Origin: Bacteroidota bacterium
GTDB lineage: Bacteria; Bacteroidota; Bacteroidia; NS11-12g; UBA955
Reading direction: 5' to 3'
NCBI GenBank assembly: GCA_947496065.1
Contig: CANMBF010000012.1
Location: forward strand, 1 to 62,214
Length of the DNA stretch: 62,214 nt
Both the position numbers and the translations under genes were made by a program. The notes under the pieces are model-generated. The model was given only the letters and a program-made list of their open reading frames with translations. It did no database searches and was not told the origin of the DNA. Below are positions 3,582-61,137 of this stretch, piece by piece. Numbering within the stretch: position 1 is the stretch's first letter; each line of letters opens with the position of its first letter.

Positions 3582-5597
3582 TTGGAAAATTCATACAAAA
3601 AAACAAATCGCTTAATAAATTCATTAAGTCCCTATTTGATACAGCATGCCCACAATCCAGTAGACTGGTATGAGTGGGGCGAAGAGGCTTTTGAAAAAGC
3701 GCGCACAGAAAACAAATTGATGATTGTAAGCATTGGTTACAGTGCCTGCCATTGGTGCCATGTAATGGCGCACGAATGTTTCGAAGATGAAGCCACTGCC
3801 GACATCATGAACAAATATTTTGTTTGTATAAAAATAGACAGAGAAGAATTGCCCGATGTGGATCAAATATACATGGATGCTTGTCAATTAGTAAATGGCA
3901 ATGGCGGCTGGCCTTTGAATGCTTTTACTTTGCCAGATAAGCGCCCTTTGCATGCCATGACTTATGCCCCAAAAGAACAGTGGCAAGAACTGCTTTTAAA
4001 CCTGCATGGTCTGTGGCAAAAGGAACCACAATCGGCCATTGACTATGCGAAGAAATTAAGTCAGGGCATTACCAACATGAGCTTAGCACCTGCATTAAAC
4101 ACGACTATATCGAATGAAAAAATAAGTGATGATATTCTAAAAGTATTCGAAGCGCAATACGATACGGTGTATGGCGGACCGAACCGCGCACCTAAATTTC
4201 CCATGCCTTCGAACTACCGTTATTTGTTGCAATATGGCGAATTAAAAAACAATCAAAGGGCTACCGATATGGGTTTGTATACTTTAAAACAAATGGCCCT
4301 TGGTGGTATTTATGATCCTGTGGCGGGAGGATTCGCACGTTACTCGGTAGATAAAAGATGGTTCGCACCTCACTTCGAAAAAATGCTATACGACAATGCA
4401 CAATTAATTAGTTTGTATAGCTATGCCTATGCTGTTTCTCAAAATCCATTTTACAAAAAAATAGCCATGGATACCTTGGCTTTTTGCAATACCGAAATGA
4501 AAGCAGAGAATGGCTTATTCTACTCAGCTTACGATGCCGATAGCGAAGGTATAGAAGGATTATACTATACTTACACTTACGAAGAATTAATAACAGTATT
4601 AGGCAATACTGCAGGCGATTTCTGTCGCTATTACCAGTGCATTCCATCAGGCAATTGGGAGCACAAACGTAATATTTTATATGCCATTGATACCATAGCC
4701 CAAGCTGCTCAACAACTCAATATTGACGAACAAAAATTAACAACTTTGATTGCAGAAGGACTTGAAAAATTAAAAACCTTTCGATCCAAAAGAATTGCAC
4801 CTGGCTTAGACGATAAATGTATTTGCAGTTGGAATAATTTAATGTTAAAAGCTTTGGCAGAAGCCGCAATGTGGTTAGACGAACCCAGCTTTGCAATACA
4901 AGCTGATGTTTTATCAACGACTATTTTAAGCACTTATTTTTCTTCAGAAGGACTGAAACGCACCAGCAAAAATGGACAAGTAAAAATTGCTGCTTTCTTA
5001 GAAGATTATGCTACTTTGATTGATGGTTTAATTACCACTTATCAAGCAACTTTTAACGAGACACATTTGTTAAAGGCCAAAGAAATTTGCGAGAACACTT
5101 TAGCCAATTTCTACAACAAGAAAAATGGTTTCTTCGAATTCAATGCCAACAATAGCGAAACATTAATTACCCCTAAATACGATGTGAACGATGATGTGAT
5201 TAGCAGTGGCAACAGCATCATGGCGCATAACCTTTGGCGATTATCCTTTTACTTTTATCATACCGATTGGTATGTTTTTGCAGAAACCATGTTGAATGCC
5301 TTAACACCAAGCATACAAAAAAGTGCCCCCTGGTATAGCCATTGGGCGGCTTTGCAATTATTGAAAGAAGAAGGCACGCATCAAATTATTTTAGCGGGCG
5401 ATGAAAGTTTAAGAAGCACCTTGCCACTGAAACATCACTACAAAACTCCGAATGCCCTCTTTGGCTTTGCAGGCAAGGACAGTGTAATACCACTCTTCGA
5501 AGGCAAAAAATACAAAGGTGAAGCACTTATTTATCCATGCAAAGACAAGGTGTGTGAAGCACCACAGGCTTACGACACGCGCTATATTACCACATAA
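3582..5597 (+). CDS. DUF255 thioredoxin-domain protein (YyaL/SPATA20 family)
   Basis: This 671-residue protein matches the SSP411/YyaL family: an N-terminal thioredoxin-like domain with the hallmark C56-H-W-C59-H, then a long alpha/alpha-toroid domain. The N-terminus ([15 protein letters not shown] then NPVDWYEWG) aligns with the usual family start, so the TTG at 3582 is the likely start; the frame opens at 3558 with no ATG before the conserved region. Its biochemical role is unsettled. The last three codons and the stop lie within the left end of the palindromic element at 5587, so insertion seems to have set the C-terminus. Confidence 0.9.
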
Positions 5598-6438
5598 GTT
5601 AGATAAGTTTAATTTAAGGTAGTTAACACTAATTATATTTGGGGACAACTCATAGTATCGATTTTTCTTTCATAGATCCTAAAGTCAACATAAGTTCTTT
5701 TTTACTTTGTAAAAAAGATTGAAGACCAAAAGTCTTTGATTTTTAAAATACATTTTGCATTTTTGATGAAACTAAAATTTGAAATTATGAAAATTACCAA
5801 GTCATACTTAAAAGATTTAACCTATCATTTTAATTCCGCTGCTATTGAGGTGCATAAGACACTTGGACCAGGACTGCTAGAGAGTATTTATCATCAATCT
5901 TTAATTCACGAGTTAGGCATTCGAAACATTGATTTTGAATCTGAATTTATAATACCAGTAATATACAAAGGCCAGATTTTAGAATCAAATGTAAGATGCG
6001 ACTTCTTAGTTGAAAGGTGCATGGTTGTTGAAATTAAATCAATTGAGGAGTTTGCTCCAATTCATGAAGCTCAAGTATTGAGCTATATGAAACTTCTGAA
6101 AGTACCGCGTGGATTATTATTAAATTTCAATGTAAAAAATTTATTCCACGAAGGACAAAAAACTTTAGTGAATGAATACTACACTCACTTAGCTGAACAT
6201 TAAACACATTTCATATGTGTTGTAACATAAATAGTCCTACTAATTACCTCACTAAAATCGTTAACTACAAACGCAAGGGCTTCCCATTTTTTGCATAGCA
6301 AAAAAAACTTATGTTCACTTAAAAACTTCCGGAAAGGGTAAAACTTTTGATTTAACCTTATTGTGATTATAATTTCAAAAAGAAAAAAGAAAAAGCTTAT
6401 CTAACTTATTACTTCGTAGCTGCTTCGCGGTGTGGTAA
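5587..6438. mobile_element. Palindromic element E1 carrying a GxxExxY gene
   Basis: The element is bounded by TTACCACA (5587-5594) and its complement TGTGGTAA (6431-6438). Inside these lie outer arms TAAGTTAGATAAG (5595-5607) and its exact complement (6396-6408), then inner arms: AAGTCAACATAAGTT plus a T-rich hairpin (5682-5716) and its imperfect complement (6287-6320). Between the inner arms sits the GxxExxY gene. A sibling with the same plan but no gene is at 59096-59700. I see no transposase in either and no convincing target duplication, so the mobility mechanism is unknown; that it moves is inferred from the copies. Confidence 0.6.
5787..6203 (+). CDS. GxxExxY protein, PD-(D/E)XK nuclease-like
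   Basis: From ATG 5787 the protein has 138 residues, the usual size of the family. The signature G29-LL-E32-SI-Y35 is present, as is a PD-(D/E)XK-like core with D72 in RCDFLVE and E82-I-K84 in VVEIKS, followed by AQVLSYMKLL and GLLLNFN, all typical of GxxExxY proteins (Pfam PDDEXK_3). Family function is not established; nuclease activity is inferred from the fold. ATG 5766 and an upstream TTG at 5736 are possible but lengthen the protein beyond the family norm. The gene is the only cargo of a palindromic element, so its product may act on that element. Confidence 0.88.
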   Translation: MKITKSYLKDLTYHFNSAAIEVHKTLGPGLLESIYHQSLIHELGIRNIDFESEFIIPVIYKGQILESNVRCDFLVERCMVVEIKSIEEFAPIHEAQVLSYMKLLKVPRGLLLNFNVKNLFHEGQKTLVNEYYTHLAEH

Positions 6439-6484
6439 AATATACCCAGGCCTTATTCCTGCCACCACGTTTATCTAACTAATT

Positions 6485-19741: not shown

Positions 19742-19746
19742 AATTA

Positions 19747-19826
19747 GTCAACTAAGTTGACGATTGATTATTGAGTTAATTGGTTATTGGGTTATTGGGT
19801 TATTGAGGGTGTGCTACAAAAAATCA
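19747..19826. repeat. Palindrome and GGTTATT-type simple repeat
   Basis: Just after lpxB lies GTCAAC-TAA-GTTGAC (19748-19762), followed by repeated TTGGTTATTGGG-like octamers near 19778-19806. There is no coding content. The palindrome lacks a T tract, so it is a poor terminator. Confidence 0.35.
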
Positions 19827-19855
19827 ACATTATACCCTATTTCCTATTCCCTACT

Positions 19856-20265
19856 CCTCCGTGCTCTCTTTGCGGCTCTAGCTTTGGGCCCTTTATTGCA
19901 AGCAATGCTGCTTCGCGGTGTGGTAAAAAGTCCATGCTTAATTATATACTCGACACTTATTTTTAACCACCAAGTTCACAAAGAGAATGCACACCAAGAA
20001 TGCAAAGATTAAAACAAACTACCCTACACTATCTCTGTCCCTTATTCCTATCCCCTAATTCCTCCGTGCTCTCTGTGCGGCTCTGGCTTTGGGCCCTTTA
20101 TTGCAAGCAATGCTGCTTCGCTGTGTGGTAAAAAGTCCATGCTTAATTATAGACTCGACTCTTATTTTTAACCACCAAGTTCACAAAGAGAATGCACACC
20201 AAGAACGCAAAGATTAAAACAAACTACCCTACACTATCTCTGTCCCTTATTCCTATCCCCTAATT
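19856..20265. repeat. 205-bp tandem direct repeat, two units
   Basis: Units 19856-20060 and 20061-20265 are nearly identical, with scattered single-base changes. Each contains CCTCCGTGCTCTCT, a hairpin-like GCTGCTTCGC(G/T)GTGTGGTAA (19907-19926, 20112-20131) identical to the right end of the palindromic elements, and an ACCACCAAGTTCACAAAG stretch resembling a widespread intergenic repeat. The second unit runs into the last codons of the THUMP methyltransferase gene. Any frame through it is a shadow. Confidence 0.85.
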
Positions 20266-20266
20266 C

Positions 20267-57993: not shown

Positions 57994-59073
57994 ATGAAAA
58001 TAGGATTTGATGCAAAACGGTATTTTCACAACAATACAGGCTTAGGCAACTACAGCCGTGTATTGGTGAACGCGCTTTGCAAAGATTTTCCTGCGCACGC
58101 CTATTATTTATTTGACAAGCGACCGAACGTCTACAATCATCCAGAAAATGCACACATTGTAAAACCAAGTGGCAGTGGTTTTTTGTGGAGAGAGAAGGGT
58201 ATTGTTAAAGACATTACCGCGACTGGTCTTGATGTATTTCATGGACTAAGCAATGAATTGCCATTCGGCCATTATCCGAGTTCTCTCAAAAAAATTGTGA
58301 CCTTACACGATGTCATTTTCAAACCTTTTCTGGGGCATTACAAATGGCTTGACCGCACCATTTACGATATTAAAACCAGGCATGCTGTTAAAATTGCCGA
58401 TACCATTATTGCTACCAGTCAGGCCACAGCCAATGACTTAATAAAGTATTACAACGCTGATGCCAAAAGGATAGCAGTTGTTTACCAATCGTGCGGACCA
58501 TTGCACCAGTTGCACTACCCTACTGATGCGGTTGAAGACTTTAAAACAACCAAAGGTTTAAATGAACCTTACTTGCTTTATGTGAGCAGTTTTCAAACGC
58601 GCAAAAACCATTTGCCCTTGATAAAAGCATTCTCAGCATTAAAAAATAAAAACATACAATTGGTTTTAGCAGGCCGAAAAGGTGAAACCTATGACGTTTG
58701 TGTTGCCTTAATAAAAAGTTTAGGCATTGAAAAACTAGTCAACTTAGTTGACGATATTTCGGCAGAAGAATTGCCATTGTTATACAGAGGAGCGCAAGGT
58801 TTTGTATATCCAAGTATGATAGAAGGTTTTGGTATTCCATTGATAGAAGCGACTTATGCCGGCTTACCCATGGCGGTGAACAACATAGCGGTGTTTAAAG
58901 AGATGGCACCTGAGGGCACTTTGTATTTCGACACGAACAATGAAGCGAGCATTGTATATGCGTTGCAACAATTGTTGGAAAGAGGCCAAGACAAGATCGA
59001 TTACAAACAACATTTGGGGCGGTTTGATGAGGGTGGTATCTCTAGACGCGTGGTGGAAATATACAAGGGGTAA
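57994..59073 (+). CDS. Glycosyltransferase family 4 (GT-B)
   Basis: The 359-residue protein has N-terminal GFDAKRYFHNNTGLGNYSR, a central TLHDVIF, and the donor-site motif YPSMIEGFGIPLIEA, all GT4 (Glycos_transf_1) features. It transfers a sugar from a nucleotide donor to an unknown acceptor, at the inner face of the membrane or in the cytoplasm. It is directly after dapD, with no polysaccharide cluster nearby. Its gene ends 22 bp before element E2. Confidence 0.9.
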   Translation: MKIGFDAKRYFHNNTGLGNYSRVLVNALCKDFPAHAYYLFDKRPNVYNHPENAHIVKPSGSGFLWREKGIVKDITATGLDVFHGLSNELPFGHYPSSLKKIVTLHDVIFKPFLGHYKWLDRTIYDIKTRHAVKIADTIIATSQATANDLIKYYNADAKRIAVVYQSCGPLHQLHYPTDAVEDFKTTKGLNEPYLLYVSSFQTRKNHLPLIKAFSALKNKNIQLVLAGRKGETYDVCVALIKSLGIEKLVNLVDDISAEELPLLYRGAQGFVYPSMIEGFGIPLIEATYAGLPMAVNNIAVFKEMAPEGTLYFDTNNEASIVYALQQLLERGQDKIDYKQHLGRFDEGGISRRVVEIYKG

Positions 59074-59095
59074 CTGACGACCATAGGGGGTGATT

Positions 59096-59700
59096 TTACC
59101 ACATAAGTGTGATAAGTTATGTCTATTGATTTGTGTTTCTAGATGTGATTTTTGGGTTGTTTAGAAACTTTGATTTTTGCTCAAAGTTTTTTAAGTCAAC
59201 ATAAGTTTTTTTTACTTCGTAAAAAAATTGGAAGGAACCATAAGCATCACAATCCCTTTTTACAATGTGAAAAATCGCTTATATTGATTTAAGAATAAAT
59301 TTCTTTTAGCATCAATGCTGCCTTGCAATTATTTAAGGGGAGATTTTCTTATTTTTAAAAAGAGGGTTAGCTCCATTTGTTGAACGCCCTTTTTTTGCAT
59401 AGAAATAAAATCTATATGATGATTTTTAAATAATAAATGTAGACTCCTTTTATTTAATTAAGTGGTTGTGGTCGAATTTCTGTTTTATTATCGTAAGCCA
59501 CAATATTCAAGGCAACCCATTTTTTACAAAGTAAAAAATCGCTTATGTGTACTTCAAAAAAAGTTATGAGAAATGTAATAGCCATAGCATAACCTAAAAC
59601 TATTATTAGTATTATGAATTCCTAAAAAAAAACTTATCATACTTATTTTGATAAGTAAATTTTTTATCAATTGAATCAAAGCAGCTTCGCTGTGTGGTAA
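59096..59700. mobile_element. Palindromic element E2, gene-less copy
   Basis: It is bounded by TTACCACA (59096-59103) and TGTGGTAA (59693-59700). Outer arms are TAAGTGTGATAAGTT (59104-59118) and its complement with one mismatch (59631-59645); inner arms are at 59193-59227 and 59520-59554, matching 29 of 35 bases. A further partial inner arm is at about 59257-59291, suggesting nesting or an internal rearrangement. The interior has no frame of note and no GxxExxY remnant. It fills almost all of the 642-bp gap between two convergent genes. Confidence 0.6.
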
Positions 59701-59715
59701 AAAAAGCGTTTTTGT

Positions 59716-61137
59716 TTACAACTCAAACGACTGGCCTTCCATTGGCATTTCTACTGTTGGTAGATTTAGGAGGTCTTTGAATTTGGCCATGCTGCTTTCA
59801 TCGCCGTGAACCAAAAAGATTTTCTTCAAACTTTTGTAGTTCACCGATTCGAAATAACGCATTAAACCATTCTGATCGGGGTGTGCACTAAACGCATCCG
59901 TACGAGCGATCTTGGCATAGACTTGGCGTTCGCGTTTGTTAATGTTTACGGTAGGGCGACCGATTAACAACTCAGCACCTAAGGTGCCTGGGGCACAAAA
60001 ACCTGCAATTAATATGGTACTATAGGGGTTGCTAATATTGTTTCTTACATGCTCTTGAATTCTTCCACCTTCGACCATACCAGCGGCCGAAATAATCACA
60101 CATGGCTCGGGCGACATACTGATGAATTCACTCTCTTTGCTGTCTTCGATAGTGGTTAATTGGGGGAAGGCAAATAAATGTCCGTGTTGTTTATAAAATG
60201 CTTGTGCCTCATCATTCAAACTACTTAAATGCAGGTCGTATAATTTAGTGGTACGAATGGCTAAAGGACTATCAGAATAAATTTTTATGTTAGGCAATAA
60301 GCCTTTGACTTGCAATTGGTGCAAGGCAAAGATAATGGCTTGAGTTCTACCTACACTAAAGGCAGGTATCACCAATTTACCATTGAATTTAACACAGGTA
60401 TTGTTAACGTATTCGAGTAACAGAGATTCGGCCTCGGCCACATCAGTATGCAAGCGACCACCATAGGTACTCTCGCTCACCAAATATTGAATATCGGGCA
60501 TGGGCTGCGGGTCTTTTACTAACTTAGAATTGTAATTCCCTAGGTCGCCAGTAAAGCCAATGATTTTTTGTTCACCATTTTCTGTTAACGTCATCTTTAC
60601 AGATGCTGCCCCTAAAATATGACCTGCTTCGAAAAACTCTATGGTTAATTGTTCATTGATGACCAATGGCTTTTTAAAGGCAATACCAACCATGGCATCG
60701 CATACCATTTCGACATGCTTGCGGTTGTATAAAGTAACTGCTTCGCGCTGACCTTCGGCTCTGGAGAACTTGGCTTGCTTGCCTTTTTTTCTGCGTACGC
60801 CACTGCGTTTATTGCTTTCAATTTGTTGCACATTCAAAGAATCGAGCAATAAATTTTTGGTTAATTCAACACTGGCATCGGTACATAAAATTTGACCGTT
60901 ATAACCTTGTTTTAAAAGGTTGGGTAAATTCCCTGAATGGTCGATGTGGGCATGGGTAAGGATTACTAGATCTAAACTTTCAGGTAAGAAAGGAAAGTTT
61001 CGGTTATCATCATCGAAGGTTTTTTTATTCTCATAATTCAACCCGCAATCTATTAATATATTAAATCCATTGGCCAAGGTTAGCAGATGCATACTCCCCG
61101 TGACCTGTCTCGCTGCACCCCAAAAAGTTACTTTCAT
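59716..61137 (-). CDS. MBL-fold beta-CASP RNA-processing-type hydrolase
   Basis: The 473-residue protein has the metal site LTHAHIDHSG (H62, H64, D66, H67), EAGHILGAASVKM, FTGDLG, the beta-CASP domain (KIYSDSPLAIRTTKLY) and the RMMBL-like C-terminus (DAFSAHPDQNGLMRYFES, LVHGDESSMAKF). This is the CPSF/YSH1-like family of bacterial beta-CASP nucleases, which probably cleave RNA. An RNase J role is not shown: RNase J has a longer C-terminus. A TAnnTTTG box lies upstream (61162-61169). Confidence 0.9.
   Translation of the reverse strand: MKVTFWGAARQVTGSMHLLTLANGFNILIDCGLNYENKKTFDDDNRNFPFLPESLDLVILTHAHIDHSGNLPNLLKQGYNGQILCTDASVELTKNLLLDSLNVQQIESNKRSGVRRKKGKQAKFSRAEGQREAVTLYNRKHVEMVCDAMVGIAFKKPLVINEQLTIEFFEAGHILGAASVKMTLTENGEQKIIGFTGDLGNYNSKLVKDPQPMPDIQYLVSESTYGGRLHTDVAEAESLLLEYVNNTCVKFNGKLVIPAFSVGRTQAIIFALHQLQVKGLLPNIKIYSDSPLAIRTTKLYDLHLSSLNDEAQAFYKQHGHLFAFPQLTTIEDSKESEFISMSPEPCVIISAAGMVEGGRIQEHVRNNISNPYSTILIAGFCAPGTLGAELLIGRPTVNINKRERQVYAKIARTDAFSAHPDQNGLMRYFESVNYKSLKKIFLVHGDESSMAKFKDLLNLPTVEMPMEGQSFEL

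Follow-up and report, generated by a model that had tools for sequence, protein, structure and literature searches.

A gene-less pair of inverted half-units between two convergent genes of a Bacteroidota bacterium and its relation to GxxExxY genes

Introduction

In the genome of a Bacteroidota bacterium (assembly GCA_947496065.1), the 642-bp gap separating two convergent genes is occupied nearly completely by an inverted repeat element, here called E2. The window analysed, i.e. the whole stretch of 62,214 nucleotides of contig CANMBF010000012.1, also contains a sibling element, E1, with an intact GxxExxY gene. This raises the question of what E2 is and how it is maintained. A first-pass annotation had regarded it as a gene-less, MITE-like, non-autonomous derivative of the GxxExxY element that could act as a two-way transcription barrier. 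Here, we describe the repeat unit from which E2 is built, its copies in related genomes and their orthologous sites.

Results

Anatomy of E2

The same ends, outer arms and inner arms as in E1 are found in E2, whose ends read TTTACCACATAAG ... GTGTGGTAAA (Table 1). The inverted inner arms (59208-59226 and 59520-59538) are 95% identical, the inverted outer arms (59103-59118 and 59631-59646) 94%, and the second, partial inner arm that had been noticed before could be confirmed, being 78% identical to the copy at 59521. One correction concerns the right end, which differs from a plain left end by an insertion of about 48 bp in the outer module (with GCAGCTTCGCTGTG); the right end of E1 also has an insertion, shorter than that of E2.

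Table 1. Coordinates of E2, its parts, its flanking genes and its sibling E1 in the window
Feature	Position	Strand	Remark
E1, sibling element with intact GxxExxY gene (5787-6203)	5585..6440	+	
Glycosyltransferase gene	57994..59073	+	flanks E2; stop 20 bp before the element
E2	59094..59702		
Left outer module TTTTACCACATAAGT-GTG-ATAAGT	59094..59116	+	alignment with 12 other half-units
Stretch matching reversed sister element (same gap, G006 L055 1459-1144)	59103..59418	+	78-79% identity
Left spacer, unconserved among family members	59117..59192	+	local hairpin 59160-59194
Left inner module AAGTCAACATAAGT	59193..59206	+	half-unit alignment
Left inner hairpin TTTTTTTAC-TTC-GTAAAAAAA	59207..59227	+	sequence and hairpin covariation
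Second, partial inner arm	59257..59291	-	equivalent in sister G006
Right inner hairpin ATTTTTTAC-(3)-GTAAAAAAT	59519..59539	-	
Right inner module CGCTTATGTGTACTT	59540..59554	-	
Right outer module ACTTATCATACTTAT	59632..59646	-	
Hairpin-forming insertion within right outer module (TTTGAT..ATCAAA plus GCAGCTTCGCTGTG)	59647..59694	-	
Right terminus TGTGGTAAAA	59693..59702	-	
Beta-CASP metallo-hydrolase gene	59716..61137	-	flanks E2, convergent; stop 13 bp past the element

Searching E2 with the GxxExxY protein (tblastn) gave at best 5 aligned residues (E = 0.94) and the longest ORF contained in the element has 46 aa, so that the first-pass annotation was right to see neither gene nor remnant here. 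It was also right that E2 fills the convergent gap almost entirely, as follows from the gene ends at 59073 and 59716. No Rfam family reached its gathering score in the window, the matches to E2 being sub-threshold (best E = 0.058). A plasmid or phage origin was considered and dropped, as neither the plasmid nor the phage collection gave a DNA match to E2.

The half-unit and its hairpin

Alignment of 13 copies showed that the basic unit is a half of about 134 bp. From the outside inwards, an outer module TTTACCACATAAGTnnnATAAGTTTT is followed by about 65-70 nt of unconserved spacer, then by an inner module AAGTnnACATAAGT and a covarying hairpin of the form T6-RC-NNN-GY-A6. A covariance model (R1) was built from these 13 halves, hairpin included. 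At E <= 0.01 and with stricter filters in force, R1 gave 60 matches in five of 59 related genomes, the source genome (G000) counted: 19 in G000, 19 in G006, 10 in G011, 8 in G014 and 4 in G004. The other 54 genomes had none at this threshold. In the case of E2, the left half (59094-59228, E = 2.3e-14) is among the model-building sequences, and the right half (59518-59655, E = 5.6e-8) is outside this set.

The hairpin is well supported across 64 distinct aligned R1 matches, in which 99.4% of cells are paired and five of the eight pairs are altered on both sides. The covariation score of 0.189 was reached by none of 500 shuffles, and slid controls gave at most 0.072. Four stem types account for the 7-bp inner hairpins seen in 54 of the 60 matches, and the other 6 lack them; these counts lean upward because the source halves of R1 contain the hairpin. 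Left and right halves share their hairpin type in just one of 10 full elements (coded by hand, orthologous elements counted separately). Therefore, the halves fold singly, and selection on a long left-right stem is unsupported. Folded as DNA, single half-units were only mildly stable (z from -0.4 to -2.5 in 8 of 8).

Arrangement and enclosed genes

Half-units occur paired around GxxExxY genes, paired around hipA/hipB, paired without a gene, or single. In G000, inverted halves enclose GxxExxY genes in E1 and in a further element on contig C47 (E3), and a hipA/hipB-like pair on C14. E2 and an element at 6334 of C59 are gene-less. Single halves at the R1 threshold are found on C38, C63, C17, C36, C76, C40 and C7 and at C59:240, and C63 has one more, weak match besides.

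The four genomes with at least 8 R1 matches (19, 19, 10 and 8) all have GxxExxY between half-units; in G004, with its 4 matches, the two GxxExxY genes sit on other contigs. The gene of E1 is an intact TIGR04256/PF13366 member, and that of E3 an intact PF13366 member. With dN/dS values of 0.04-0.25 over 10 pairs, the GxxExxY gene is under purifying selection.

The arrangement of the half-units, extragenic, with hairpins and in inverted pairs, resembles REPINs, and G000 has two genes for Y1 transposases of the RAYT type. However, the contigs of both Y1 genes (C2 and C65) are without R1 match, and the gene on C2 is flanked by a different palindrome, ATCCCTACGGGAT. We therefore rejected the reading of the half-units as REPINs of the genome's own RAYTs and give it hardly any weight. 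The Y1 gene on C2 (L198 1220-2300), lying among ATCCCTACGGGAT palindromes, probably has its own REP family.

E2 is not a deleted E1

In the alignment of E1 and E2, the interiors are unrelated beyond the shared modules. This ruled out E2 as an internally deleted E1, and the derivative reading of the first-pass annotation was not borne out. What stands of its view is the sibling relationship: both elements belong to one repeat family, which also has members with no gene or with different cargo. E2 has the terminal inverted repeats of a MITE, without an interior drawn from the gene-bearing copy. About half of E2 instead matches, in reversed orientation, the element that occupies this gap in the sister species G006.

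Old sites with changing contents

To compare the E2 gap, blastn was run over 29 relatives' loci, and the two flanking genes are neighbours in G006, G004 and G014. The gap is occupied in all three, and the site is therefore old; the empty gap that had been suggested as a sign of insertion was not seen among these sisters. It had also been proposed that the same sequence in orthologous gaps of many species would mean a fixed locus. Occupation was indeed constant, whereas order, orientation, sequence and ORF content differed. In the case of G006, a half and a small ORF are followed by a full element, the inner part of which is that of E2 reversed (L055 1459-1144 against 59103-59418, 79%). In G004 and G014, the ORF is followed by an element of about 200 bp with a different sequence.

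The G006 half (L055 381-700) lies between the glycosyltransferase gene and the small ORF, which has a weak GldL_N match below the cut-off. These two genes overlap in G004 and G014, unlike in G006, where the half-unit splits them. By eye, sequence resembling the old gene end seems to precede the ORF in G006, as if a unit had entered the 3' end of the gene with a long imperfect duplication.

Shared occupation extends to the other sites. For each of the 13 sites of G000, at least one of four sisters has an element at the orthologous place, with varying ends and contents. Movement should therefore be rare, and most of it could be ordinary recombination among repeat copies. The comparison took in sister loci with R1 matches or the E2 gap, and only C14 was searched directly; absences are consequently under-sampled, because the compared sites had R1 matches themselves. 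For C14, the G004 match is a weak one (E = 0.004), and for C7, gene and element in G011 are separated by about 1.3 kb of additional sequence. At the E1 gap, G014 has a GxxExxY element and G004 a gene-less element of about 130 bp with ACACAAAAG ends. The C17 site shows four different outer ends in four species.

At C59 of G000 (L034 6520-6841), the right half is present in duplicate when compared with G006 and G014. Behind each of the two right halves comes an identical 16-bp flank (TAAAATGTCCCCGTTT), and their spacers look unrelated.

One site differs in occupation. G014 lacks the hipA/hipB pair of C14 together with both halves, and its matches to the flanking genes are 30 bp apart; thus, gain or loss happens in the family. 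Presence and absence were seen at this one site, E2 itself being occupied in the sisters compared. No target duplication was visible by eye against the empty site, the flanks having diverged. Copying to a new place is suggested by the spacers: those at C27:2734 and C27:35605 of G006, 33 kb apart, are 83% alike (score 43, shuffle maximum 17.5), which by the spacer comparison would be one copy at a distant place. The same comparison also gives several local duplications. Since sites are shared, ends and contents vary and only one empty site and one distant copy were met, the family appears, as far as these comparisons reach, to be old and mostly vertical, slowly remodelled in place and rarely gained or lost.

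These observations also bear on a classical terminal-inverted-repeat transposon family, of which E2 would be a MITE and GxxExxY and hipA/hipB passengers, with the transposase missing from the genome. The inverted ends TTTACCACA/TGTGGTAAA, the variety of cargoes and the occupied/empty pair at hipA/hipB would suit such a family. Nevertheless, we consider it unlikely: the empty site has no visible target duplication, single halves are common, orthologous sites differ in their ends and the interior of E2 is not a deleted E1. Moreover, the genes read between paired half-units of G000 are GxxExxY and hipA/hipB, with no transposase among them (the genome-wide search covered Y1 only).

Position at gene ends and RNA folding

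The RNA of E2 folds far below shuffled sequences on either strand (z = -8.1 and -6.9, better than each of 20 shuffles per strand), and such a fold is expected of a large palindrome. In G000, 18 outer ends face a gene (tallied by hand), in 12 cases its 3' end and in 6 its 5' end. The distance was at most 20 bp in 10 of the former and none of the latter (Fisher p = 0.0015, post hoc; one 5' distance assumes the ATG at C59:6869 as start).

Both results would fit a fixed 3'-end element, i.e. a double-stranded RNA rod on either strand that stops, stabilizes or processes converging transcripts and is retained for this function. Yet the terminator scan found no intrinsic terminator (a GC-rich hairpin followed by a T-run) inside E2, and its single site in 58800-60000 (58906-58919) compares with a shuffle mean of 1.0. 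The disagreement of left and right hairpin types leaves the long stem without a sign of selection, the content is free to change between sisters, and one family site is empty in a sister. We thus regard retention as a fixed 3'-end element as improbable. A two-way barrier to transcription would be a possible function of E2.

GxxExxY genes and inverted arms across the phylum

GxxExxY genes were found in 38 of the 59 relatives (E <= 0.001) and, for the phylum, in 149 of the 296 genomes sampled (E <= 1e-20). Their flanks were then compared with a cross-family null, using only loci with full flanks: 26 of 29 GxxExxY loci of relatives (L084-L112), 26 of 30 for the 23S rRNA intervening-sequence protein genes (23S-IVP, PF05635), 17 of 20 for Y1, 21 of 29 for MBL controls and 8 for DPPIV controls. 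Inverted short-period arms scored above the 99% null at 16 of the 26 GxxExxY loci of relatives and at 14 of 30 phylum loci, the latter being the best-scoring ones and not a random draw. The controls gave 1 of 21 (MBL) and 0 of 8 (DPPIV). GxxExxY genes in Bacteroidota are thus often flanked by inverted short-period arms. By its ends, E2 was assigned to the class of GxxExxY-associated inverted-arm elements proposed here, without having the gene.

RAYT-type Y1 genes, which are known for flanking repeats, were above the null in 8 of 17 cases. Flanking arms are not unique to GxxExxY, because the 23S-IVP genes of relatives have them too (13 of 26). This last result could point to an RNA-level intervening-sequence element, related to those of 23S rRNA with four-helix-bundle genes and excised by RNase III from transcripts. 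On the other hand, the sites of the present family are intergenic, so that nothing needs excision from transcripts, and the contigs of both 23S-IVP genes of G000 (C13 and C18) have no R1 match. An origin as an intervening sequence is therefore very improbable. On C13 (L235 1380-1480 and 1850-1890), the 23S-IVP gene lies outside rRNA between short-period GGTTATTG repeats and their complement, as judged by eye, and similar strings recur at 19765-19805 of the window. Its arm score of 14.5 is not above the null, which here consisted of mismatched pairs within the family and was spoilt by related IVP/MBL loci.

Among 14 phylum arms inspected, CACAGAG- or CACGGAG-like units could be recognized by eye in 11, and CACATAAG looks like a local dialect of these. 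The arm of the G001 GxxExxY gene matched 20 times in its own genome, against 0-2 times per genome in 16 others of the genus; on such comparisons, each genome appears to have its own arm dialect. A third GxxExxY gene of G000 (C42, L043 1-1150) is flanked by CACAAAG/CGCAAAG tandem repeats, and E1 and E3 have the CATAAG dialect. In the window, a second convergent gap (19742-20266) holds two tandem repeats of about 200 bp with CACAAAG/CTCCGTGC units, each with a GCTGCTTCGC(G/T)GTGT hairpin piece; this looks like a sister family with a different end type. The piece GCTGCTTCGCGGTGT has 5 matches in the window (<= 3 mismatches; 0.52 expected), among them 6419-6433, 19907-19921, 20112-20126 and 59681-59695; it recurs in modules that belong to several dialects and resembles an even smaller insertion in its own right.

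Regarding the protein itself, eight plasmid records contain a GxxExxY relative, all below 60% identity, and named relatives among genome contigs amounted to two loci, both in MAGs called 'Bacteroidetes bacterium'. The AlphaFold model, made from 3 sequences, had a mean pLDDT of 37.8 and was unusable for a fold search, and no solved structure was related by sequence (best E = 0.99).

Discussion

Our preferred answer, to which we assign a probability of about 0.45, is that E2 consists of two paired half-units without a gene and belongs to a repeat population which is inherited vertically, copies itself slowly and includes the PD-(D/E)XK nuclease genes GxxExxY. The family as a whole is probably a slow REPIN-like system with a PD-(D/E)XK nuclease in place of the RAYT transposase, and it is by association that this nuclease would be the driver.

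A possible mechanism can be outlined as follows. Firstly, the nuclease encoded by E1 and E3 would recognize the modules or the hairpin of its own dialect and cut there. Secondly, repair of the break from another copy would convert the ends and swap or lose the interior. The same repair may duplicate halves in tandem and occasionally seed a new gap. E2 would then have been remodelled in this way; the nuclease encoded by E1 and E3 would maintain it in trans, and its place directly after two stop codons would explain why it is tolerated.

More generally, GxxExxY nucleases and ACCACAGAG-like inverted arms might form a transposase-free REPIN-like system, selfish or domesticated, in which cutting of own-dialect arms and repair copy half-units, swap cargo and keep the dialect uniform, with E2 maintained in trans. 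We put this general scheme forward tentatively and would rather bet against it than on it. Should the arms be the substrate of the nuclease, a large family of unknown proteins could be given a function open to testing, and a cause could be named for many so far unexplained repeats between genes in Bacteroidota. REPIN-like populations would then also have a second route of origin, one that needs no transposase.

Comparison with known systems

GxxExxY genes are common, yet in the titles and partial texts of the literature searched the names GxxExxY/PF13366, PDDEXK_3, TIGR04256 and IPR026350 are scarcely mentioned, and one passage that names GxxExxY concerns reverse-transcriptase annotation. Within these sources we found no name for the present repeat family and no description of GxxExxY-linked repeat copying; its arm strings occurred only in papers whose titles and opening abstract lines dealt with other subjects.

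In the case of the GxxExxY family (TIGR04256, PF13366), E1 and E3 have intact members and E2 is gene-less. To our knowledge, flanking repeats are not part of this family's definition. With the 23S rRNA intervening sequences and their four-helix-bundle genes (PF05635), the elements share a small gene between inverted arms; they differ in lying outside rRNA and in encoding another protein, E2 being placed between two protein genes and not in a 23S helix. Inverted ends, gene-less copies and a presence/absence site are shared with MITEs and terminal-inverted-repeat transposons. The differences are that here no transposase was seen and no target duplication found, that single halves occur and that interiors do not come from the gene-bearing copy.

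The closest known kind among the sources consulted is the REPIN-RAYT system (PMC3116915, PMC8049555). Common to both are short extragenic hairpin units, often in inverted pairs and also as singlets, persisting populations and a dedicated linked gene; the present family also has one dialect per genome. No Y1 gene is flanked by the R1 repeats in G000. Where the REPIN palindrome unit measures 20-40 bp (PMC3733652), the present unit has about 134 bp with its variable spacer; other genes may sit between the halves, and the linked gene is a PD-(D/E)XK nuclease and not a Y1 tyrosine transposase.
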